From Blastocatellia bacterium (lineage in GTDB: Bacteria > Acidobacteriota > Blastocatellia > Chloracidobacteriales > JADJPF01), in NCBI GenBank assembly GCA_025057015.1, contig JANWYG010000010.1, forward strand, positions 218,506-282,505: a stretch of 64,000 nt of DNA, read 5' to 3'. Numbering within the stretch: the stretch's first letter is position 1; each line of letters begins with the position of its first letter. Below the pieces are notes generated by a model that was not told the origin of the DNA, did not search any database, and worked only from the letters and a program-made list of their open reading frames with translations. Position numbers and translations under genes: made by a program. This document shows positions 6,034 to 46,243 of this stretch, one piece after another.

Positions 6034-7158
6034 TAGTTGGAAGGTTCTTGAGGCTGCAGCTCTTAGCAATGTTGGTGCGGCTTTGATGGCTTTCTCGAAG
6101 GTAGTTACTTCATCGATGATAGGTACTATAGCGCTGAAGCCATGTTGCTCGGCTTGTTCCTTGTCGAGCGAGGATTTGGCTGTGAAGGCTATCAGTGGTA
6201 TCGAGCGCTCTTTTGCTTCCAGGGCAAGTTGCCCAGGCGATTTACCTGCGAGCGTTTGCTGGTCTATAGTGCCTTCTGCCGTGAAGGCTAAGAAGCATTC
6301 ATCGAGCTTTTCTGCTAGCTTACCGAACTCAAAGATGAGCTTGCTGCCTGGAAGCATTTTAGCTCCAAAGAGGGCGACAAAACCGATTGCTAGACCGCCT
6401 GAAGCGCCGCTACCGGGCATACCTGCTACGTCTATACCTGAAAATCGTTTAAGTACGGCTGCCCAATTAGCTAGTCCAGCGTCAAGTTTACGTATCATGG
6501 CAGAAGTAGCGCCTTTTTGGGGGCCGAAGACTGCTGCTGCACCAAACTGGCCGAGCAAAGAATTACCTACGTCGTGGGCGATTATGAATTCTACTTTTGT
6601 GATCGCTGGGTGTAATGTGGTCAAGTCGATGTTTTGTATACGGTGAAGAACTCCACCACCCTGCCCTACACAGCGACCCCTTACATCGAGGAGTCTTACG
6701 CCTAGCGCTTGCAATGCGCCTATGCCGCCGTCGACAGTAGCACTATCGCCTATACCAAGAATTATTCTCTTTGCACCGCGTTGCACAGCTTTGAGGATTA
6801 GTTGTCCGGTTCCATAGCTAGATGCAAGCATCGGATTACGTTCGCTCTTGCTAAGGAGCGCAAGCCCGCTGCTTGCAGCTATTTCTATCACCGCTGATGT
6901 GCCGTCTGCTAGTAGTCCGTAACGGGCTATTACAGGGCGTCCACGCGGGTCTAGCACGCGTGCTTGTAGCTTCTCTCCCCCTACGGCACTTAGTATGGCG
7001 TCCACCGTGCCGCTACCACCATCTGCTAGAGGAGCCTTAATCGTGGTGATGTCGTTTGTAACATCACGTAGTCCAGCTTCTATTGCTTGGGCTGCAGCCG
7101 TGGCACTTATCGATTCTTTAAAGCCGCTTGGTGCTATAAGGATTTTGTTCTTCTTCAT
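6001..7158 (-). CDS. Glycerate kinase (GlxK/GarK family)
   Basis: 385 residues, the normal size for type-1 glycerate kinases, which phosphorylate D-glycerate with ATP. It shows the N-terminal family sequence ILIAPSGFKESISA, IKAPLADGGSGTVDA near residue 40, GIGDSATVDGGIGALQALG near 140, and PGSGASGGLAIG near 250. No Shine-Dalgarno precedes the ATG at 7158; a TATAAT hexamer lies 14 nt upstream within a palindrome, so the 5' leader should be very short. Glycerate may come from serine or glyoxylate metabolism; no partner genes are adjacent. The 3' end overlaps the preceding convergent gene. Confidence 0.9.
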   Translation of the reverse strand: MKKNKILIAPSGFKESISATAAAQAIEAGLRDVTNDITTIKAPLADGGSGTVDAILSAVGGEKLQARVLDPRGRPVIARYGLLADGTSAVIEIAASSGLALLSKSERNPMLASSYGTGQLILKAVQRGAKRIILGIGDSATVDGGIGALQALGVRLLDVRGRCVGQGGGVLHRIQNIDLTTLHPAITKVEFIIAHDVGNSLLGQFGAAAVFGPQKGATSAMIRKLDAGLANWAAVLKRFSGIDVAGMPGSGASGGLAIGFVALFGAKMLPGSKLIFEFGKLAEKLDECFLAFTAEGTIDQQTLAGKSPGQLALEAKERSIPLIAFTAKSSLDKEQAEQHGFSAIVPIIDEVTTFEKAIKAAPTLLRAAASRTFQLLLIGQKLGRF

Positions 7159-7166
7159 CGTTGATG

Positions 7167-7181
7167 CGGTATATTATACCG
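7167..7181. promoter_or_regulatory. 15-bp palindrome over divergent promoter region
   Basis: CGGTATA and TATACCG are perfect 7-bp arms around one T. On the minus strand the palindrome contains TATAAT (7178-7173), placed for the glycerate kinase gene. A plus-strand TATATT (7170-7175) lies in the same element, upstream of the acyl-CoA synthetase gene. It could be an operator for both genes, a bidirectional promoter core, or both. Confidence 0.45.
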
Positions 7182-7240
7182 GCAAAGCAAATAGATGAAG
7201 GTCGTCTTGCAGTAAGACTTTTGTCTTAGGGGGTTAGAGT

Positions 7241-8857
7241 ATGAAGGGACTCATGATGAATACGCCGCTGACGGTGCGTATGATACTGGAGCGTGCGCGC
7301 TTGTATTATGGTAGCAACGAGATAGTTACTAGGGTAGATGGTGGATACCATCGGTACAGGTACAGCGATTTTTATGATCGCGTGGTAAAACTTGCGGCTG
7401 CACTGAGGAAAATGGGTGTAGGTAAAGGTGACCGAGTTGCTACGTTTGCCTGGAACACTTTTCGGCATTTGGAGCTTTACTTTGCTGTGCCTTGCCTTGG
7501 AGCAGTAATACATACGCTGAATATCCGGTTGTCTCCAGAACAGCTTGCCTACATTGCAAACCATGCAGAGGACAAAGTTCTGTTCTATGACGCTATGTTT
7601 AGTCCTGCTATAGAACGACTTAGGCCATATCTAAATACTGTGAAGCAGTACGTAGTGTTGGATGACGCTGCTGCTACTGACAAGGACCTGGCTTATGAAC
7701 AGTTGCTAGCTGCTCAACAGGACGACTTTGAGTGGCCGGATTTAGATGAAAACGATGCTGCCGGGCTTTGTTATACTTCTGGTACTACGGGGCACCCTAA
7801 AGGAGTGTTATACTCGCATCGTTCGATCTATCTACATACTTTGACTTGTGCCATGGCTGATTGCATGGGAATTACGGAAGAGGACGTCTGTATGCCTATA
7901 GTCCCGATGTTTCATGCGAATGCTTGGGGTCTACCCTACACTTGCGCCATGATAGGAGCAAAGCAGGTTATGCCGGGGCAATTTATGCAGCCCGGGGAGA
8001 TACTTAAAGCAATAGTCGAGGAAGGAGTGACGATTACTGCTGGAGTGCCTACTATCTGGCTGGGCGTTATGCAAGTGCTTGAACAGTCACAGGTAGATCT
8101 TAGCCGGTTGAAGAAGATCATAATAGGTGGCTCGGCTGTACCAGAAGCGATGATGCGCTACTTTGATTCGAAGTATGGCATACCCGTAATTCAAGCTTGG
8201 GGAATGACAGAAACTTCGCCGCTTGGCTCGATAGCCAAGCTTAAGCAGCATATGCGCAGTTGGGACTACGAACGGCAGTTGGCCATCAGACTGAAGCAAG
8301 GTATACCTGCTCCGGGAATAGAGGTGCGTGCGGTGGACGAAAGTGGCCGCCAAGTGCCTTGGGATGGTAAGACGCTAGGAGAGCTGCAGGTACGCGGCCC
8401 TTGGGTAGCTAGCGCTTATTACAACACCACAGAGCGTGCCGAAGCCTTTCAGGACGGTTGGTTTTCGACTGGCGACGTCGTGACGATTGACTCTGAGGGG
8501 TACATCACCATCTGCGATCGCACTAAGGACTTGATAAAGAGTGGTGGTGAGTGGATTTCTAGTGTGGATATGGAGAATGCTTTGATGGGACATCCGAAGA
8601 TCAAGGAAGCTGCTGTAATAGCTGTTGCTCATGAGAAATGGGTCGAGCGGCCGTTAGCTTGTGTTGTGCTGAAAGCAGGCGAGACACTGACAGATGAGGA
8701 AGTGATAGAATATCTGCGCGGTCGTTTTGCTTCTTGGTGGTTGCCCGATGCTGTCGAGTTTATACAAGAGATTCCGAAGACGAGTGTCGGTAAGTTTGAT
8801 AAAAAAGTGCTTAGGGAGCGTTTCAAAAACTATCGTTTGCCTGAGAGGAAAAAGTAG
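7241..8857 (+). CDS. Long-chain fatty-acid-CoA ligase family protein (AMP-forming)
   Basis: 538 residues of the ANL adenylate-forming superfamily. The P-loop is YTSGTTGHPKGV (residues ~178-190), followed by the AWGMTETSPLG adenine-binding region (~325), WFSTGD (~408), the hinge DRTKDLIKSGGEW, and the C-terminal catalytic Lys in GKFDKK. It activates a carboxylic acid to acyl-AMP and then acyl-CoA; overall similarity is to medium/long-chain acyl-CoA synthetases. The ATG follows AGGGGG by 7 nt. It overlaps the next gene by one base (TAGTG), so it is coupled to the aldehyde dehydrogenase. The pair could oxidise aldehydes and activate the resulting acids, which is an inference. Confidence 0.9.
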   Translation: MKGLMMNTPLTVRMILERARLYYGSNEIVTRVDGGYHRYRYSDFYDRVVKLAAALRKMGVGKGDRVATFAWNTFRHLELYFAVPCLGAVIHTLNIRLSPEQLAYIANHAEDKVLFYDAMFSPAIERLRPYLNTVKQYVVLDDAAATDKDLAYEQLLAAQQDDFEWPDLDENDAAGLCYTSGTTGHPKGVLYSHRSIYLHTLTCAMADCMGITEEDVCMPIVPMFHANAWGLPYTCAMIGAKQVMPGQFMQPGEILKAIVEEGVTITAGVPTIWLGVMQVLEQSQVDLSRLKKIIIGGSAVPEAMMRYFDSKYGIPVIQAWGMTETSPLGSIAKLKQHMRSWDYERQLAIRLKQGIPAPGIEVRAVDESGRQVPWDGKTLGELQVRGPWVASAYYNTTERAEAFQDGWFSTGDVVTIDSEGYITICDRTKDLIKSGGEWISSVDMENALMGHPKIKEAAVIAVAHEKWVERPLACVVLKAGETLTDEEVIEYLRGRFASWWLPDAVEFIQEIPKTSVGKFDKKVLRERFKNYRLPERKK

Positions 8858-30826: not shown

Positions 30827-30864
30827 AGCATAGGGTGGTGGTAATTTTAACTGGGAGGTGTCTG

Positions 30865-32655
30865 ATGAGAGTAGGGCGTGTGGAGTTGGGCCCTGGGGCA
30901 ATTATTTTGATAGTACTGGTCATGGCGGGGCTTGTTTATGTAGGTCTTGACAAGCTAGGCGTCATATCGAAGTTGAGGGAAGGGATGCAACTTCCTGCCA
31001 CGGGAGTTTCTCTTGTACCTGACAAGCCTATGGACATAGCTGAGGATCTCAAGAATGTCTCTTTCGGGCCTTCGGAGATAGCACCTCCACAGAAGACTAC
31101 TGACAATCCTGAGGTGGCGATAGGGATATGGACGTGGCAGACGCAGAGTGGGTTGATAGATGCCGTAGGAGGCCCTGGTAAGTCTGGCGACCATTCCGAT
31201 AGTTGTCTTTGCCAGGCTGGAATAACAAATACGAGGCTCGTATTGCAAAACGATACTTCGATGCAGATACAAGCACTAGCTGCCGGGCAGATGCAGTTGG
31301 TGACTACGACAGGTGACCAAGCAGCAGTAGACATTACCGGTGCGAATAAACTTTTAAGAGGTAACAAGGCAAAGATAATATGGAGTGGGGGATATTCTTT
31401 TGGCGAGGACTGTCTTATGGGCCCTGAATCTTGGAAGCAAGATCCACAGGCTGCCCGCGGGGCGGTGATAGTTACGGCTGTACCGTATTGTGATTGGAAC
31501 GTCGTTGTTGATTGGGCAGGAGATAACCAGATTCCGGTCAATTCTGATGAGAGTGCTTATGATCCGGACGCAATTAACTTCGTCAATGCTACTGATCATA
31601 TAGAAGCTGCGCAAAAGTTTGTGCAGAATGCTAAGGTTAGTCTTAGAAATCGTAAGACTGGGCAGATGGAAGAACACACTATAACTGGTGTTGGTACTTG
31701 GACGCCGGGCGATGTTATGGCCGTGCAAGGTAGACCGACGGTTGAGTATGAGGGTAAGGTTGAGAAGCTACAGAAGATAGTTTCTACAAAAGAATACAGT
31801 TACATGATGCCAAACCTGCTTTTTGGAAATGCTGACTGGCTCAGCCAACATAGAGATTATGTAAAGACGTTGCTGCGCTGTATAGCTCGTTCTAACGAGA
31901 AGATAAAAAGTGATCCGGAGTATTTCAAAAACCGCGTAGCAGCGCTCAATGCGCTTGTATTCAATATGGAGGGTAAAGGACCTAGTTTTTGGCACAAATA
32001 CTTCTATGGTGCTGCAGAAAATGGTGTGCCACTTGGGGGGTCTCGCGTAAACAACATCAAAGAAGTGCGTCATTTATTTGGCATAGACCAGAACTTGCCG
32101 ATAGAAAAGTCTGTTTTTGGAATCACGTATCTGGATCACGCTCGTAGATTACAAAAGCTGATACCGGATAGGTTGCCGAGTTACACACCTGTAGCCGAGG
32201 CAGTCGATTTGAGCTTCATCAGAGAAATTTCAGATGAAGAAGCAGGTACGTCAGTCTATCAGGCAAAATTTGAAGATAGGCCTACTACTGGCACCGTGGT
32301 GAAAGCTAGCTATCAGATACGGTTTGCTACTGGCTCGGCTAAGATAATGCCTTCTGAAGAGCCTGTACTGCAGGAAATACGCAGTTTATTAGTTCGTGCG
32401 AGCGATACGAAGGTGGTTCTCGAAGGCCATACTGACAATACCGGGGATGTAGCTACGAATCTAGCATTGTCAAAACAGCGTGCAGAATCAGTATGGCAAT
32501 GGCTTAAGGCTTCCGATCCCACAAGGGTAAATATAAGCGACCGAAGGCTGGAGGCAATAGAAGGCTACGGACCATACCGCCCATTGCCGGGTAATACAAA
32601 TAAAGATGAAGCTGAGCGTGCAGCCAATAGACGCGTGGTTATCATACTAAAATAG
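30865..32655 (+). CDS. ABC substrate-binding protein fused to OmpA C-terminal domain
   Basis: 596 residues from ATG 30865, 6 nt after GGGAGGTG. An N-terminal membrane anchor (GAIILIVLVMAGLVYVGLDKL) is followed by a long NMT1/TauA-like periplasmic binding domain (~80-440), with VAIGIWTWQTQSG, MQIQALAAGQMQLVTTTGD and YDPDAINFVNATDHI. The last ~130 residues are an OmpA-type peptidoglycan-binding domain: IRFATGSAKIMPSEEPVLQE, LEGHTDNTGDVATNLALSKQ and ERAANRRVVI. The next two genes encode a permease and ATPase, so this is the binding subunit, apparently tethered to both inner membrane and cell wall. The ligand is unknown; sulfonate- or nitrate-like solutes are typical of the importer family. Confidence 0.88.
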   Translation: MRVGRVELGPGAIILIVLVMAGLVYVGLDKLGVISKLREGMQLPATGVSLVPDKPMDIAEDLKNVSFGPSEIAPPQKTTDNPEVAIGIWTWQTQSGLIDAVGGPGKSGDHSDSCLCQAGITNTRLVLQNDTSMQIQALAAGQMQLVTTTGDQAAVDITGANKLLRGNKAKIIWSGGYSFGEDCLMGPESWKQDPQAARGAVIVTAVPYCDWNVVVDWAGDNQIPVNSDESAYDPDAINFVNATDHIEAAQKFVQNAKVSLRNRKTGQMEEHTITGVGTWTPGDVMAVQGRPTVEYEGKVEKLQKIVSTKEYSYMMPNLLFGNADWLSQHRDYVKTLLRCIARSNEKIKSDPEYFKNRVAALNALVFNMEGKGPSFWHKYFYGAAENGVPLGGSRVNNIKEVRHLFGIDQNLPIEKSVFGITYLDHARRLQKLIPDRLPSYTPVAEAVDLSFIREISDEEAGTSVYQAKFEDRPTTGTVVKASYQIRFATGSAKIMPSEEPVLQEIRSLLVRASDTKVVLEGHTDNTGDVATNLALSKQRAESVWQWLKASDPTRVNISDRRLEAIEGYGPYRPLPGNTNKDEAERAANRRVVIILK

Positions 32656-32666
32656 AGGGTTGAAAA

Positions 32667-33458
32667 TTGCAGGAAAATAAACTGAGCTCTCTACTCAAGC
32701 TACGTGGAGAAATAACTAAACCCATCCGCTTGGCGCTGCTGAGCGGATGGATGCTTTTGTTCTTAATTTTTTGGATATTTTCGCCTATGAAAGCGCTGCC
32801 TACTCCTACTGAGGTACTGCTTGCTCTGCGTAGGATGTTTGCAGAGCAGCACCTGCTCTACCATTTGGTAGTAACTCTTAAGCTCAATATAGTCGGGTTG
32901 GTGTATGCGACTGTAGTATCGCTTCTAATATCATACCTCGGCACGCTACCGCTTTTTTATCACTTGAACAGAGCGGTTCAACTTCTCAGATATATTCCGT
33001 TCGTAGGATTTAATCTGATATTTCTGACACTTTTTACCATAGGTTTTCCTCTGAAAGTAGCTTGGCTAACTACCGGCATGAGCTTCTTTTTGGTAACTGG
33101 CATGACGGCTGTAATTGAATCTATTCCTCGAATGAAATATGAACTAGCTCAGGTACTGGGATATAATGGCTGGCAGACTTTTTACACCGTGGTAGCGCGG
33201 CCAACGCTGCCACATATGATGGACATAGTGGCACAGAATGCAGCCATAGGCTGGGTGATGATTACTTCGATAGAAACTTATGCCCGTACTGAAGGTGGGA
33301 TAGGGGCGCAGATCTATCAATATTCTTCGACGAATAATTTGGCTGAAGTATATGGCCTGTTGATGCTTATTGGGCTGATAGCTGCAGTAGAAGATGCAAT
33401 CTTCGTGTTTTTGCGGCGAATGCTATTTCCTTACAGCACGCTTGCGGAGAGGGCATAG
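32667..33458 (+). CDS. ABC transporter permease (TauC/SsuC-like)
   Basis: 263 residues with about six membrane helices. It begins at TTG 32667, 7 nt after GAGGG. The EAA-loop region reads YELAQVLGYNGWQTFYTVV followed by ARPTLPHMMDI, as in nitrate/sulfonate/taurine permeases that pair with NMT1-type binding proteins. It lies 11 nt after the binding-protein gene and directly abuts the ATPase gene, so the three form one importer operon. Confidence 0.88.
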   Translation: MQENKLSSLLKLRGEITKPIRLALLSGWMLLFLIFWIFSPMKALPTPTEVLLALRRMFAEQHLLYHLVVTLKLNIVGLVYATVVSLLISYLGTLPLFYHLNRAVQLLRYIPFVGFNLIFLTLFTIGFPLKVAWLTTGMSFFLVTGMTAVIESIPRMKYELAQVLGYNGWQTFYTVVARPTLPHMMDIVAQNAAIGWVMITSIETYARTEGGIGAQIYQYSSTNNLAEVYGLLMLIGLIAAVEDAIFVFLRRMLFPYSTLAERA

Positions 33459-34337
33459 ATGGCAAGTTATGAGGATTGTGTCGCTGGCCCACTTGAAGGT
33501 CACGTGGAACGACGTGAGGCGCTTCTCAAACTCGAACGTGTAACACAGTCGTTTAGGATGAACAATGGCGTTGAGTTGGTAGTGCTGAAAGAGTTGGATC
33601 TGGAAATTATAGACATAAAATTCAAGCCGCAAATAGTTAGCCTACTTGGGCCCTCTGGATCAGGCAAGACGACGGCGCTTAGGATAATAGCTGGGTTGGA
33701 TAAGCCTAAGTTTGGACAGGTGCTTATAGGCGATGGTGAGCAGGGTAGCCTGCGACGTGTTCGCGCAGGAGACGTAGGCGTAGTCTTCCAGCGCTATCCG
33801 TTGTTTGATGACCTGAGAGTGGTAGATAACTTGGTTGAGCCTGCGGTGCGCATCGGTAAGATGAGCAGGAAAGAAGCACTTGATCAAGCATTGCAGTATT
33901 TGGATAGGTTTAATTTGGTACGGCAAGGTTATAGCTGGCCAGTCCAGCTTTCAGGTGGACAGCGCCAGCGCGTTGCTATATTGCAGCAGCTAATAACGGG
34001 TAAGAAGTTCATCGTGCTCGATGAGCCTTTTTCCGGCCTCGACCCGATAAGTGTGTCAAATGCCATTCAATTGATTTCTGAAATAGCCCATCAACATACT
34101 TTGAATACATTCATAATCGTCACTCATGATGTCTCAGCTGCCTTGCTAATTTCGGATCATGTTTACTTGCTTGGTCGCGAACGTGATGAAAAAGGTAATC
34201 CTTTACCTGGAGCTCGGGTGGTCAAAGTCTATGACTTGATAGCTGAGGGCATAGCTTATCGGGATAACATGGAAGACCTTCCAAGATACAGGGAGTTATA
34301 CAAGCAGATCTGTAGGAAGGATTTTCCACTCTTATGA
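33459..34337 (+). CDS. ABC transporter ATP-binding protein (TauB/SsuB-like)
   Basis: 292 residues with all ATPase motifs: Walker A GPSGSGKTTALRIIAGLDKP (~66-85), Q-loop VVFQRYPLFDDLRVVDNL, signature LSGGQRQRVAILQQL, Walker B KFIVLDEPFSGLDPIS and switch His in IVTHDVSAALLISDHVYLL. It starts directly after the permease stop, with GGAGAGGG upstream. It powers import by the upstream binding protein and permease. The C-terminal ~50 residues (LPRYRELYKQICRKDF) extend slightly beyond the usual core. Confidence 0.92.
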   Translation: MASYEDCVAGPLEGHVERREALLKLERVTQSFRMNNGVELVVLKELDLEIIDIKFKPQIVSLLGPSGSGKTTALRIIAGLDKPKFGQVLIGDGEQGSLRRVRAGDVGVVFQRYPLFDDLRVVDNLVEPAVRIGKMSRKEALDQALQYLDRFNLVRQGYSWPVQLSGGQRQRVAILQQLITGKKFIVLDEPFSGLDPISVSNAIQLISEIAHQHTLNTFIIVTHDVSAALLISDHVYLLGRERDEKGNPLPGARVVKVYDLIAEGIAYRDNMEDLPRYRELYKQICRKDFPLL

Positions 34338-44310: not shown

Positions 44311-44378
44311 GTCGTCGGCAGAAATTTGGAATTTCTGGATACTACTTCAATGAAGACAATGGTTTGACGGATGAGTAT

Positions 44379-45695
44379 ATGAATATAGTAGAGGCTATAA
44401 GGAGTGCAGGCGTAGTTGGTGCTGGCGGAGCGGGATTCCCGGCGCATGTCAAAGCCGCTTCGAAAGTAGAGTATGTGATAGCTAACGGTGCGGAATGTGA
44501 ACCGCTGTTACATAAGGACTATGAGTTGATGGTTCATTTTCCGGCGCAAGTGATACGTGGGCTGAAACTGTTGATGCAGTCAACGGGTGCTGAGCGGGGA
44601 ATAATAGGCATAAAGGAGAAGAATAGCAGCGCTATTGAGGCGATTGAGTCTGCTATAGATGATCCACGAATACGATTGCATCTGCTTGGAGATTTCTATC
44701 CTTCTGGGGATGAATATGTGCTGGTGTATGAAGCTACAGGGAGGCTTATCCCGCCGCAGGGTATCCCTTTGGATGTTGATATAGTGGTAAACAATGTAGA
44801 GACTATGTACAACATAGCGCGTGCTGCTCAGGGTCTACCTGTAGTAGAGAAGTTTATTACCGTAACGGGAGCGGTAAGTAGGCCTATTACTTTTATTGCT
44901 CCCGTAGGGATGAGTTATCGTGATGCTATAGCGGCTGCTGGAGGTGCTACTGTTAGCGATTTTGCTGTCTTCGTGAGCGGTATAATGATGGGTAAACTGG
45001 AATTTAATCTGGATCTGCCGATTACTAAAACCTGTGCTGGGCTAATAGTGCTTCCTCGGAACCACTATCTTGTGAGTCGGTATGAGCAGCCTACTACTGC
45101 TATGCATCGTATTGGTAAGTCGGCTTGTGATCAGTGTAGCTATTGTACGGAGTTATGTCCCAGGTATATCCTAGGCTATGATGTACAGCCACACAAAGTG
45201 ATGCGCAGTCTTAGCTTCACTGCTACAGGCGATGATATCTGGAATCAGTATGCGCAGCTTTGTTGTGCTTGTGGGCTATGCACGCTCTATGCTTGTCCAG
45301 AAAGCCTCTATCCTAAGGAGGCTTGTGACAAAGGTAAGCATGATTTACGGTTGAAGGGAATCAAGTGGTCTGGGAAGCGCGAGGTAACGCCGCATCCTAT
45401 GTATGAGTATCGCCGTACGCCGCTCAAGATGTTAGTAAACAAGCTTGGCATAGCCGATTATGAAAGGCCGACGCCTTTTACTGTGCTTGAGCAGCTACCA
45501 AGACGTGTAGAGATACCGCTACAGCAGCACATAGGGGCTGTGGCTGAGCCGGTGGTAAGGGTAGGTGACGTTGTCAAAAGCGGGGATCTAATTGGCGAGA
45601 TACCTTCGGGGAAGCTTGGCGCAAGGGTTCATGCTAGCATTGACGGGGTAGTGCGCGAGGTATCCGACAAGATAGTCATAGAGAGGAACGTATGA
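44379..45695 (+). CDS. pduS: PduS-like RnfC-family iron-sulfur flavoprotein
   Basis: 438 residues from ATG 44379 (TTG 44364 is also in frame). It begins with the RnfC/NuoF-like nucleotide loop GVVGAGGAGFPAHVKAAS and NGAECEPLLHKDYELM. A SLBB region follows (FITVTGAVSRPITFIAPVGM). Two 4Fe-4S sites are visible: Cys250/253/256/260 (CDQCSYCTELCP) and Cys295-306 (CCACGLCTLYACPESLYP), the latter spacing being typical of PduS. The tail is a biotinyl-like barrel (VRVGDVVKSGDLIGEIPSG). PduS reduces cobalamin inside propanediol microcompartments and partners with the shell protein PduT. The stop overlaps the start of the pduT-like gene (ATGA). Assignment to a B12 role here is an inference. Confidence 0.88.
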   Translation: MNIVEAIRSAGVVGAGGAGFPAHVKAASKVEYVIANGAECEPLLHKDYELMVHFPAQVIRGLKLLMQSTGAERGIIGIKEKNSSAIEAIESAIDDPRIRLHLLGDFYPSGDEYVLVYEATGRLIPPQGIPLDVDIVVNNVETMYNIARAAQGLPVVEKFITVTGAVSRPITFIAPVGMSYRDAIAAAGGATVSDFAVFVSGIMMGKLEFNLDLPITKTCAGLIVLPRNHYLVSRYEQPTTAMHRIGKSACDQCSYCTELCPRYILGYDVQPHKVMRSLSFTATGDDIWNQYAQLCCACGLCTLYACPESLYPKEACDKGKHDLRLKGIKWSGKREVTPHPMYEYRRTPLKMLVNKLGIADYERPTPFTVLEQLPRRVEIPLQQHIGAVAEPVVRVGDVVKSGDLIGEIPSGKLGARVHASIDGVVREVSDKIVIERNV

Positions 45696-46243
45696 AGAAG
45701 AACTCGATAGGTTTGATAGAGCTTTCGAGCATAGCTGCTGGATATTTAGTGGTTGACGCTATGTTGAAGGCTGCAGATGTAGAACTGCTGCTTGCACGAT
45801 CGATTTGCTCTGGCAAGTACATGACTATGGTTAGGGGAAACGTTGGAGAGGTAAAATCGAGCGTTCAGGCTGGCATAGAAGTTGGCCGCGGCTTTATAAT
45901 AGATACCTTTGTTATTCCTAACGTACACGATCAAGTCTTTCCGGCAATATACGGTTCTGCAAAGTTCGATGAGCTTGAATCTCTAGGAGTATTGGAGTCT
46001 TTTTCTGTAGCTTCTTTGATAGAGGCGGCTGATGCTGCTGCAAAGGCGGCTGCTGTGCAGCTTCTAGAAATACGTCTTGCTATGGCGCTTGGTGGCAAAG
46101 CTTTCGTGACTATGACCGGGCCTGTGGCTGCAGTACAGTCGGCAGTTAATGCTGGTGCTGCCGTGCTTGCTGACAAAGGATTGCTCGTAAATAAGGTGGT
46201 AATACCTGCTCCACGAAAAGAACTGCTTTCAGAGATGATATAG
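45692..46243 (+). CDS. pduT: Tandem-BMC microcompartment shell protein, PduT-like
   Basis: 183 residues with two BMC domains (SIGLIELSSIAAGYLVVDAM from residue 5; LGVLESFSVASLIEAADAAA from ~98), the layout of BMC-T trimers. The motif ARSICSGKYMTMV places Cys39 where PduT has the pore Cys that ligates a 4Fe-4S cluster, and the C-terminal LLVNKVVIPAP also matches PduT. It probably conducts electrons across a shell to the adjacent PduS-like protein. No other shell, vertex or signature-enzyme gene is in the window, so the rest of the compartment must be encoded elsewhere, or this pair acts without one. Confidence 0.92.
   Translation: MKKNSIGLIELSSIAAGYLVVDAMLKAADVELLLARSICSGKYMTMVRGNVGEVKSSVQAGIEVGRGFIIDTFVIPNVHDQVFPAIYGSAKFDELESLGVLESFSVASLIEAADAAAKAAAVQLLEIRLAMALGGKAFVTMTGPVAAVQSAVNAGAAVLADKGLLVNKVVIPAPRKELLSEMI

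Follow-up and report, generated by a model that had tools for sequence, protein, structure and literature searches.

The microcompartment (BMC) closest to the one described here is the ACI type of Sutter et al. 2021 (PMC8217296). In the excerpts of that study used here it consists of a class II aldolase with an encapsulation peptide, a triplet of BMC-P genes, at least one BMC-H gene and, in the main locus, a 2-hydroxyacid dehydrogenase; the aldehyde dehydrogenase (AldDH) is consistently found on a satellite, and the hosts are Acidobacteria, mainly of subdivisions 4 and 6. The same excerpts describe the FRAG types and dispersed shells in Ignavibacteriae. A satellite locus, as worded in the relevant part of Axen et al. 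2014 (PMC4207490), holds an insufficient contiguous set of shell genes and belongs to a genome with a fuller BMC locus elsewhere. In Citrobacter, PduS is an NADH-dependent protein with FMN and two [4Fe-4S] centres that co-purifies with PduT; the PduT cluster has a midpoint potential of +99 mV and PduS has midpoints of -150 to -262 mV, so that a flow from lumen to cytosol would run downhill, and the authors suggest that electrons pass out of the compartment (PMC2982820, in the part consulted). PduS and PduT have also been discussed as redox accessories of glycyl-radical compartments (PMC6325248), and a PduT-like shell protein as a redox carrier in Listeria (PMC8547011), each in excerpted text. 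Dispersed BMCs, the ACI type, satellites and the idea of electron export are already in print.

The window analysed here is a stretch of 64,000 nucleotides from a Blastocatellia genome (positions 218506-282505 of the 554-kb contig C15). Blastocatellia correspond to Acidobacteria subdivision 4, one of the two main host groups of the ACI type. The window carries genes for a PduS-like oxidoreductase and a PduT-like shell protein (Table 1), whose ORFs share a 4-bp overlap, ATGA, that is read directly in the DNA. In a profile search the PduS-like protein shows all four domains (PF01512, PF10531 (SLBB), PF13534 (Fer4_17) and PF13375 (RnfC_N)) listed for PduS in the excerpt of PMC6325248, and it combines them with two tetracysteine motifs in one protein of ~49 kDa. 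Its orthologues in three other Blastocatellia genomes are 69-75% identical. The sole cysteine of the PduT-like protein, Cys39, aligns with the CPGK cysteine of 3pac and of 3nwg, the best PDB match (E 1.7e-50); in 3n79, which together with 3pac makes up the other closest solved relatives, the position is Ser. All domain scores of the pair are far above chance. Against TIGR02526 (eut_PduT) the shell protein scores 130.2 bits, under the curated cut-off of 250.3, and is therefore called 'PduT-like'. The G+C content of the pair is 0.48 versus 0.471 for the window. DNA, domain and PDB alignment evidence thus bears out the original prediction of a PduS-PduT pair with an ATGA overlap, a tandem BMC protein and Cys39.

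Table 1. Positions of the redox pair within the window and of the two enzyme genes at other loci of the same genome (L008, L009).
Feature	Position	Strand	Remarks
PduS-like NADH/FMN/2x[4Fe-4S] oxidoreductase	44379..45695	+	438 aa from ATG, stop TGA; alternative TTG start at 44364
Complex1_51K (NADH/FMN) domain of PduS, GAGGAGF motif	44397..44819	+	PF01512, E 3e-46
PduS tetracysteine motif 1, C250xxC253xxC256xxxC260	45126..45158	+	kept in 83/83 aligned sequences
PduS tetracysteine motif 2, C295xxC298xxC301xxxxC306	45261..45296	+	kept in 83/83 aligned sequences
RnfC_N barrel-sandwich domain, PduS C-terminus	45492..45677	+	PF13375, E 1.5e-14
PduT-like tandem BMC-domain (BMC-T) shell protein	45692..46243	+	183 aa; two PF00936 stretches, E 1.3e-45
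Cys39 codon of PduT, predicted pore ligand of a [4Fe-4S] cluster	45806..45808	+	Cys in 74/74 aligned PduS-linked PduT
Class II aldolase	L008 9093-9887		PF00596, E 6e-47; adjoins BMC-H and BMC-P
AldDH, satellite locus with BMC-H on C23	L009 7999-9831	-	CoA-acylating acetaldehyde-dehydrogenase type

A search of the whole genome (3.33 Mb, 23 contigs, 97% complete) with PF00936 and PF03319 found no other shell or vertex gene on C15, within the window or beyond it, and thus no full BMC operon just outside the window that would make the pair ordinary. Three other contigs do carry such genes: two single-domain BMC-H genes (C10:111374, C23:109631) and three BMC-P genes (C10:111661, C12:53386, C12:53115). 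The original prediction, that the window holds no further shell gene, was right locally and misleading globally, and the complete lack of other BMC genes that it would have read as backing for a new role does not apply. The C10 locus comprises Rex, class II aldolase, BMC-H and BMC-P, the C23 locus BMC-H with an AldDH (612.9 bits against TIGR02518, cut-off 620.1), and the C12 locus two BMC-P genes with a TIGR02536-like gene beside GlpX. No BMC locus lies closer than 14.5 kb to a contig end, so breaks in the assembly do not account for the dispersal. The genome carries an ACI-like microcompartment split into four loci, the pair included, and the pair is very probably a remote part of a BMC whose remaining genes are scattered over the same genome. 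It fits the definition of a satellite locus in that a fuller BMC set exists elsewhere; because strict satellites in the excerpt of Axen et al. 2014 hold no other BMC-related genes and PduS is present here, we call it 'satellite-like'.

As in the ACI type, shell genes lie next to a class II aldolase gene whose product has a conserved tail at its C-terminus, a BMC-P triplet and at least one BMC-H are present, the AldDH is on a satellite, and Blastocatellia relatives carry the same genes. Unlike the ACI type as described in the excerpts, the main locus is split, with two BMC-P genes on another contig, an extra PduS-PduT satellite exists (the main text of Sutter et al. 2021, PMC8217296, mentions neither protein), and no 2-hydroxyacid dehydrogenase adjoins the main locus, for which reason we speak of 'ACI-like' and not of 'ACI'. 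PF02826 (2-hydroxyacid dehydrogenase) has six matches in the genome, one of them in the window 7.6 kb upstream of PduS and none within ~10 kb of the other three BMC loci, the nearest on C10 being 28 kb off. The idea that PduS-PduT replaces a lost dehydrogenase of this kind as NAD+ recycler found no support, because each of the eight genomes checked has PF02826 matches (2.4e-44 or better). With the FRAG types, as excerpted, the genome shares shell genes at several genomic places and the BMC-P triplet, and FRAG-carrying Ignavibacteriota hold the closest outside PduS, with PduS-PduT likewise separated from the remaining shell genes; in the FRAG types most shell genes stand far from any known enzyme, whereas aldolase and AldDH adjoin shell genes here. 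The PDU metabolosome of Citrobacter and Salmonella has the four PduS domains, the two tetracysteine motifs, the pore cysteine of the BMC-T and the gene adjacency in common with this pair, which differs in lying outside a pdu operon, in a genome where no PduL was found, and in the sub-threshold TIGR02526 score of its PduT. The SPU-like/class II aldolase loci (Axen et al. 2014, PMC4207490, in part), represented here by locus L112 from KSB1, share PduS-PduT, BMC-P triplet, AldDH, BMC-H and aldolase. L112 differs in being a single cluster, on one strand, with the genes DeoR, three BMC-P, RpiB-like, PduS, PduT, PduL, AldDH, BMC-H, class II aldolase and AckA, and its AldDH is ~30% identical to that of our genome.

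Several features of the enzyme loci were recorded. The aldolase tail follows the pattern [ST]L[TKS][RK]xEL in 8/8 Blastocatellia aldolases compared; encapsulation peptides were not significant by hydrophobic moment in this genome, the best amphipathic window of its aldolase tail being equalled by 255 of 1000 shuffles. In the AldDH, a long linker rich in Pro and Gln contains an LVxxFLAER-like helix, which several relatives share; a second C-terminal segment, KTIITPSARELGE, is similar to a motif of the L112 RpiB-like protein. The TIGR02536-like gene (L010 9042-9695, minus strand; an ethanolamine operon family of unassigned function, score below the cut-off) adjoins BMC-P and its product ends in a CxxCxxC motif; shorter relatives adjoin BMC-P in G004, G005 and G154. 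Rex, a redox-sensing repressor responding to NADH/NAD+, precedes the aldolase-BMC-H-BMC-P genes in five class genomes (L008 8382-10425 on C10, L015, L022, L029 and L159), and its position beside the aldolase suggests control of compartment expression by the NADH/NAD+ ratio. Genes for a succinate dehydrogenase-type flavoprotein and iron-sulphur protein, named by eye, lie near this locus (L008 3930-6466, L015, L029).

BMC domains were detected in 32 of 39 genomes, this one counted, and the seven without all belong to genus g6. The order Rex-aldolase-BMC-H-BMC-P recurs in G001, G002 and G017; G154 has an intact Rex-aldolase-H-P-P-P locus, G027 has H-P-P-P, and BMC-H-AldDH satellites occur in the class genomes read. 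In the 8.4-Mb genome G004 the microcompartment is nearly fully shattered, with seven shell genes on seven contigs (C88, C70, C97, C112, C24, C116 and C105; L011, L018, L019, L161), one of them near a contig start. PduS at 69% identity or more is present in only four of 162 class genomes (G000, G154, G004 and G005), a rarity which indicates that the ACI compartment usually works without it. In all four, PduT adjoins PduS, the flanking genes differ, no other BMC gene was found near PduS in the stretch examined, and shell genes exist elsewhere; the contamination of G154 is given as 4, and its contig may be misbinned. Co-presence of PduS and BMC in the class gave a Fisher p = 1 (4 and 28 versus 0 and 7) in a rough table that mixes in the PduS-bearing G154 from outside the 39-genome set. 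A putative PduS fragment in G009 was discarded, as it stands beside Rnf-type genes and reads as the end of an RnfC. In G017 and G021, which lack PduS, a single BMC-T gene encodes Pro at the position of Cys39; its product may be a shell protein of the same compartment with no redox function. In these lone tandem genes (L013 8669-9223 and L014 8863-9690, both minus strand) Pro-Arg-Gly replaces the cluster cysteine.

A PduS scan of genome contigs, from which the best 80 of 579 loci were kept with flanks of up to 6 kb (less on short contigs), returned mostly Ignavibacteriota/Bacteroidota and Bryobacterales-type Acidobacteriota. Among these best 80 of 579, a PduT scoring above 150 bits adjoins PduS in 71 loci and is partial or split in three more (L072, L089, L141), in four the contig stops at PduS or shortly beyond it (L067, L079, L084, L114), and L119 and L122 offer room after PduS yet contain no PduT. 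In L141, from a Bryobacteraceae MAG, PduT lies in two overlapping frames (7145-7920), a frameshift or an assembly error. Only three of the best 80 of 579 loci (L066, L112, L140) have further BMC genes near PduS. BMC-P was found in all 40 of the genomes searched from behind the 80 loci, and PF00936 matches in 39/39 of them (L064, i.e. G005, left out). Among the matches listed, read by eye, PduT was seen in 38 of the 39 genomes; it is on a different contig from the other BMC genes in 35, a separation that counts only as a lower bound because many contigs are short, and it shares a contig with another BMC gene in at least three (G165 at ~5 kb, G177 at ~42 kb, G189 at ~32 kb). G169 and G200 have no BMC-H among the matches listed. 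At least one genome (L112) combines PduS-PduT with a compartment of class II aldolase, AldDH and BMC-P triplet, and a second (L140, also KSB1), which resembles L112 as far as the locus extends, combines it with a BMC-P triplet and AldDH; in both the pair is inside a clustered BMC locus.

On this evidence the pair is probably a satellite of a dispersed, ACI-like catabolic BMC (at least four contigs) that exports electrons from AldDH-made NADH through the pore cluster of PduT. The class II aldolase, presumably encapsulated, would release an aldehyde, the putative substrate of the CoA-acylating AldDH, which would convert it to acyl-CoA and NADH. PduS, bound to PduT on the inner face of the shell, would take up electrons from lumen NADH through FMN and then the two [4Fe-4S] clusters and pass them to the predicted [4Fe-4S] cluster on Cys39 in the PduT pore, from which they would exit to cytosolic acceptors, restoring lumen NAD+ without an alcohol dehydrogenase. 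AldDH-made NADH is the inferred donor, given that searches for PduL and for a glycyl-radical enzyme came back empty: PduL (PF06130) is absent from 12/12 Blastocatellia genomes tested, with a positive control, so that the classical PduL/AckA branch is not evident. Counter-points to this reading are that the pair shares no operon with any ACI gene and that an NAD-linked 2-hydroxyacid dehydrogenase, given the PF02826 matches, could itself recycle NAD+. The original prediction had proposed a satellite feeding electrons into a compartment elsewhere. Its satellite half is supported, with two BMC-H, three BMC-P, aldolase and AldDH genes on three contigs; the direction of flow is probably outward and not inward.

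An unlikely alternative keeps the inward direction: the pair would import or generate reductant in the lumen for the reactivation of a B12- or glycyl-radical enzyme, in the way that PduS serves diol dehydratase. Citrobacter PduS does reduce cob(III)- and cob(II)alamin (PMC2982820, excerpt), and PduS-PduT is common in glycyl-radical compartments (PMC6325248, excerpt). However, the search for glycyl-radical enzymes that the original prediction had called for detected no PFL-like enzyme in the genome, with a working control, and inward reduction of low-potential centres is improbable for a PduT at the published +99 mV (PMC2982820, excerpt). A search for diol dehydratase (PF02286) had no match in the genome, and its control was equally silent. 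Rather less likely still is a satellite in which PduT only anchors PduS and the latter delivers to a soluble carrier, with no transfer across the shell. The published Citrobacter data, as excerpted, show binding of PduS to PduT and not trans-shell transfer (PMC2982820), but the strict conservation of Cys39 in PduS-linked PduT, set against Pro in the two lone BMC-T proteins, argues against this reading.

That the pair is a repurposed, BMC-independent redox module, as the original prediction offered as its second option, is very unlikely. The pair is physically isolated and follows two genes on its own strand, a histone-deacetylase-fold protein (PF00850) and a PIG3-type quinone/enoyl reductase, which overlap by 13 bp and leave a 68-bp gap before the PduS ATG; the prediction was correct about these neighbours, which could be partners of such a module. 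Against this, no PduS-PduT genome without BMC-P exists among the 40, which makes a BMC-independent role unlikely, and the neighbours differ in all four class genomes. Among the 83 PduS loci (two of them the same place) no homologue of the neighbouring deacetylase, quinone reductase, 3D-domain or asparaginase genes was found, and an operon partnership with deacetylase or quinone reductase was dropped, as neither gene recurs beside the pair in other genomes. At a distance of 10 kb from the pair (window 30835-34337) there is an ABC transporter accompanied by a large substrate-binding-like protein; a comparable one adjoins the aldolase-BMC-H locus of G005 (L020 1706-5348), probably by chance. That the pair is what decay has left of a lost PDU- or FRAG-type locus would suit the rare and patchy occurrence in the class, but it is just as improbable, as both ORFs are intact, all eight PduS cluster cysteines and PduT Cys39 are retained, and the pair stays together in four genomes despite different surroundings.

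For the history of the satellite, an 83-row PduS tree places the four Blastocatellia rows in one set (support 95/89), nested in an 11-row set (99/96) otherwise made up of Ignavibacteriota, Bacteroidota, Chlorobiota and one unplaced MAG. Forcing Blastocatellia together with the 31-row Bryobacterales group was rejected (p-AU 3.9e-5), as was forcing the 31 Acidobacteriota rows alone together (1.7e-4); the groups for these tests were named after the tree groupings had been seen. Identities to Blastocatellia, Bryobacterales and Ignavibacteriota, respectively, are 83/64/45% for BMC-P1 and 74/50/42% for the aldolase, as against 72/62/71% for PduS, in a comparison with few Ignavibacteriota, one Bryobacterales genome for the shell numbers and G154 left out. 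PduT (81/74/76%) follows the PduS order, weakly. Shell and enzymes rank Blastocatellia before Bryobacterales before Ignavibacteriota, except for BMC-H2, where Ignavibacteriota (81%) are ahead of Bryobacterales (77%). Since PduS nests among Ignavibacteriota/Bacteroidota and shell and enzymes look acidobacterial, the pair seems to have been gained horizontally from another phylum; this is the simplest reading, with the direction of donation unproven. For PduS, vertical inheritance inside the order (G000, G004 and G005 as one clade) was not rejected (p 0.18), so that transfer within the class is not shown.

New here are the association of the pair with an ACI-like BMC, its near-universal isolation and its apparent transfer; a search of titles in the open-access literature found none on PduS-PduT with ACI or FRAG compartments. 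With chances that we put somewhat below even, PduS-PduT might be an electron-export module complete in itself, passing from phylum to phylum without the rest of the organelle and fitting into resident BMCs of differing type (FRAG in Ignavibacteriota, ACI-like in Acidobacteriota), where it would replace or supplement internal NAD+ recycling. The module would be a ready part for engineered shells. ACI-like BMCs with and without the pair in one class form a natural contrast that makes the role of the PduT cluster directly testable. If the pair serves BMCs with which it is not encoded, trans-shell electron export would be a general, swappable function and not a peculiarity of PDU/GRM compartments.
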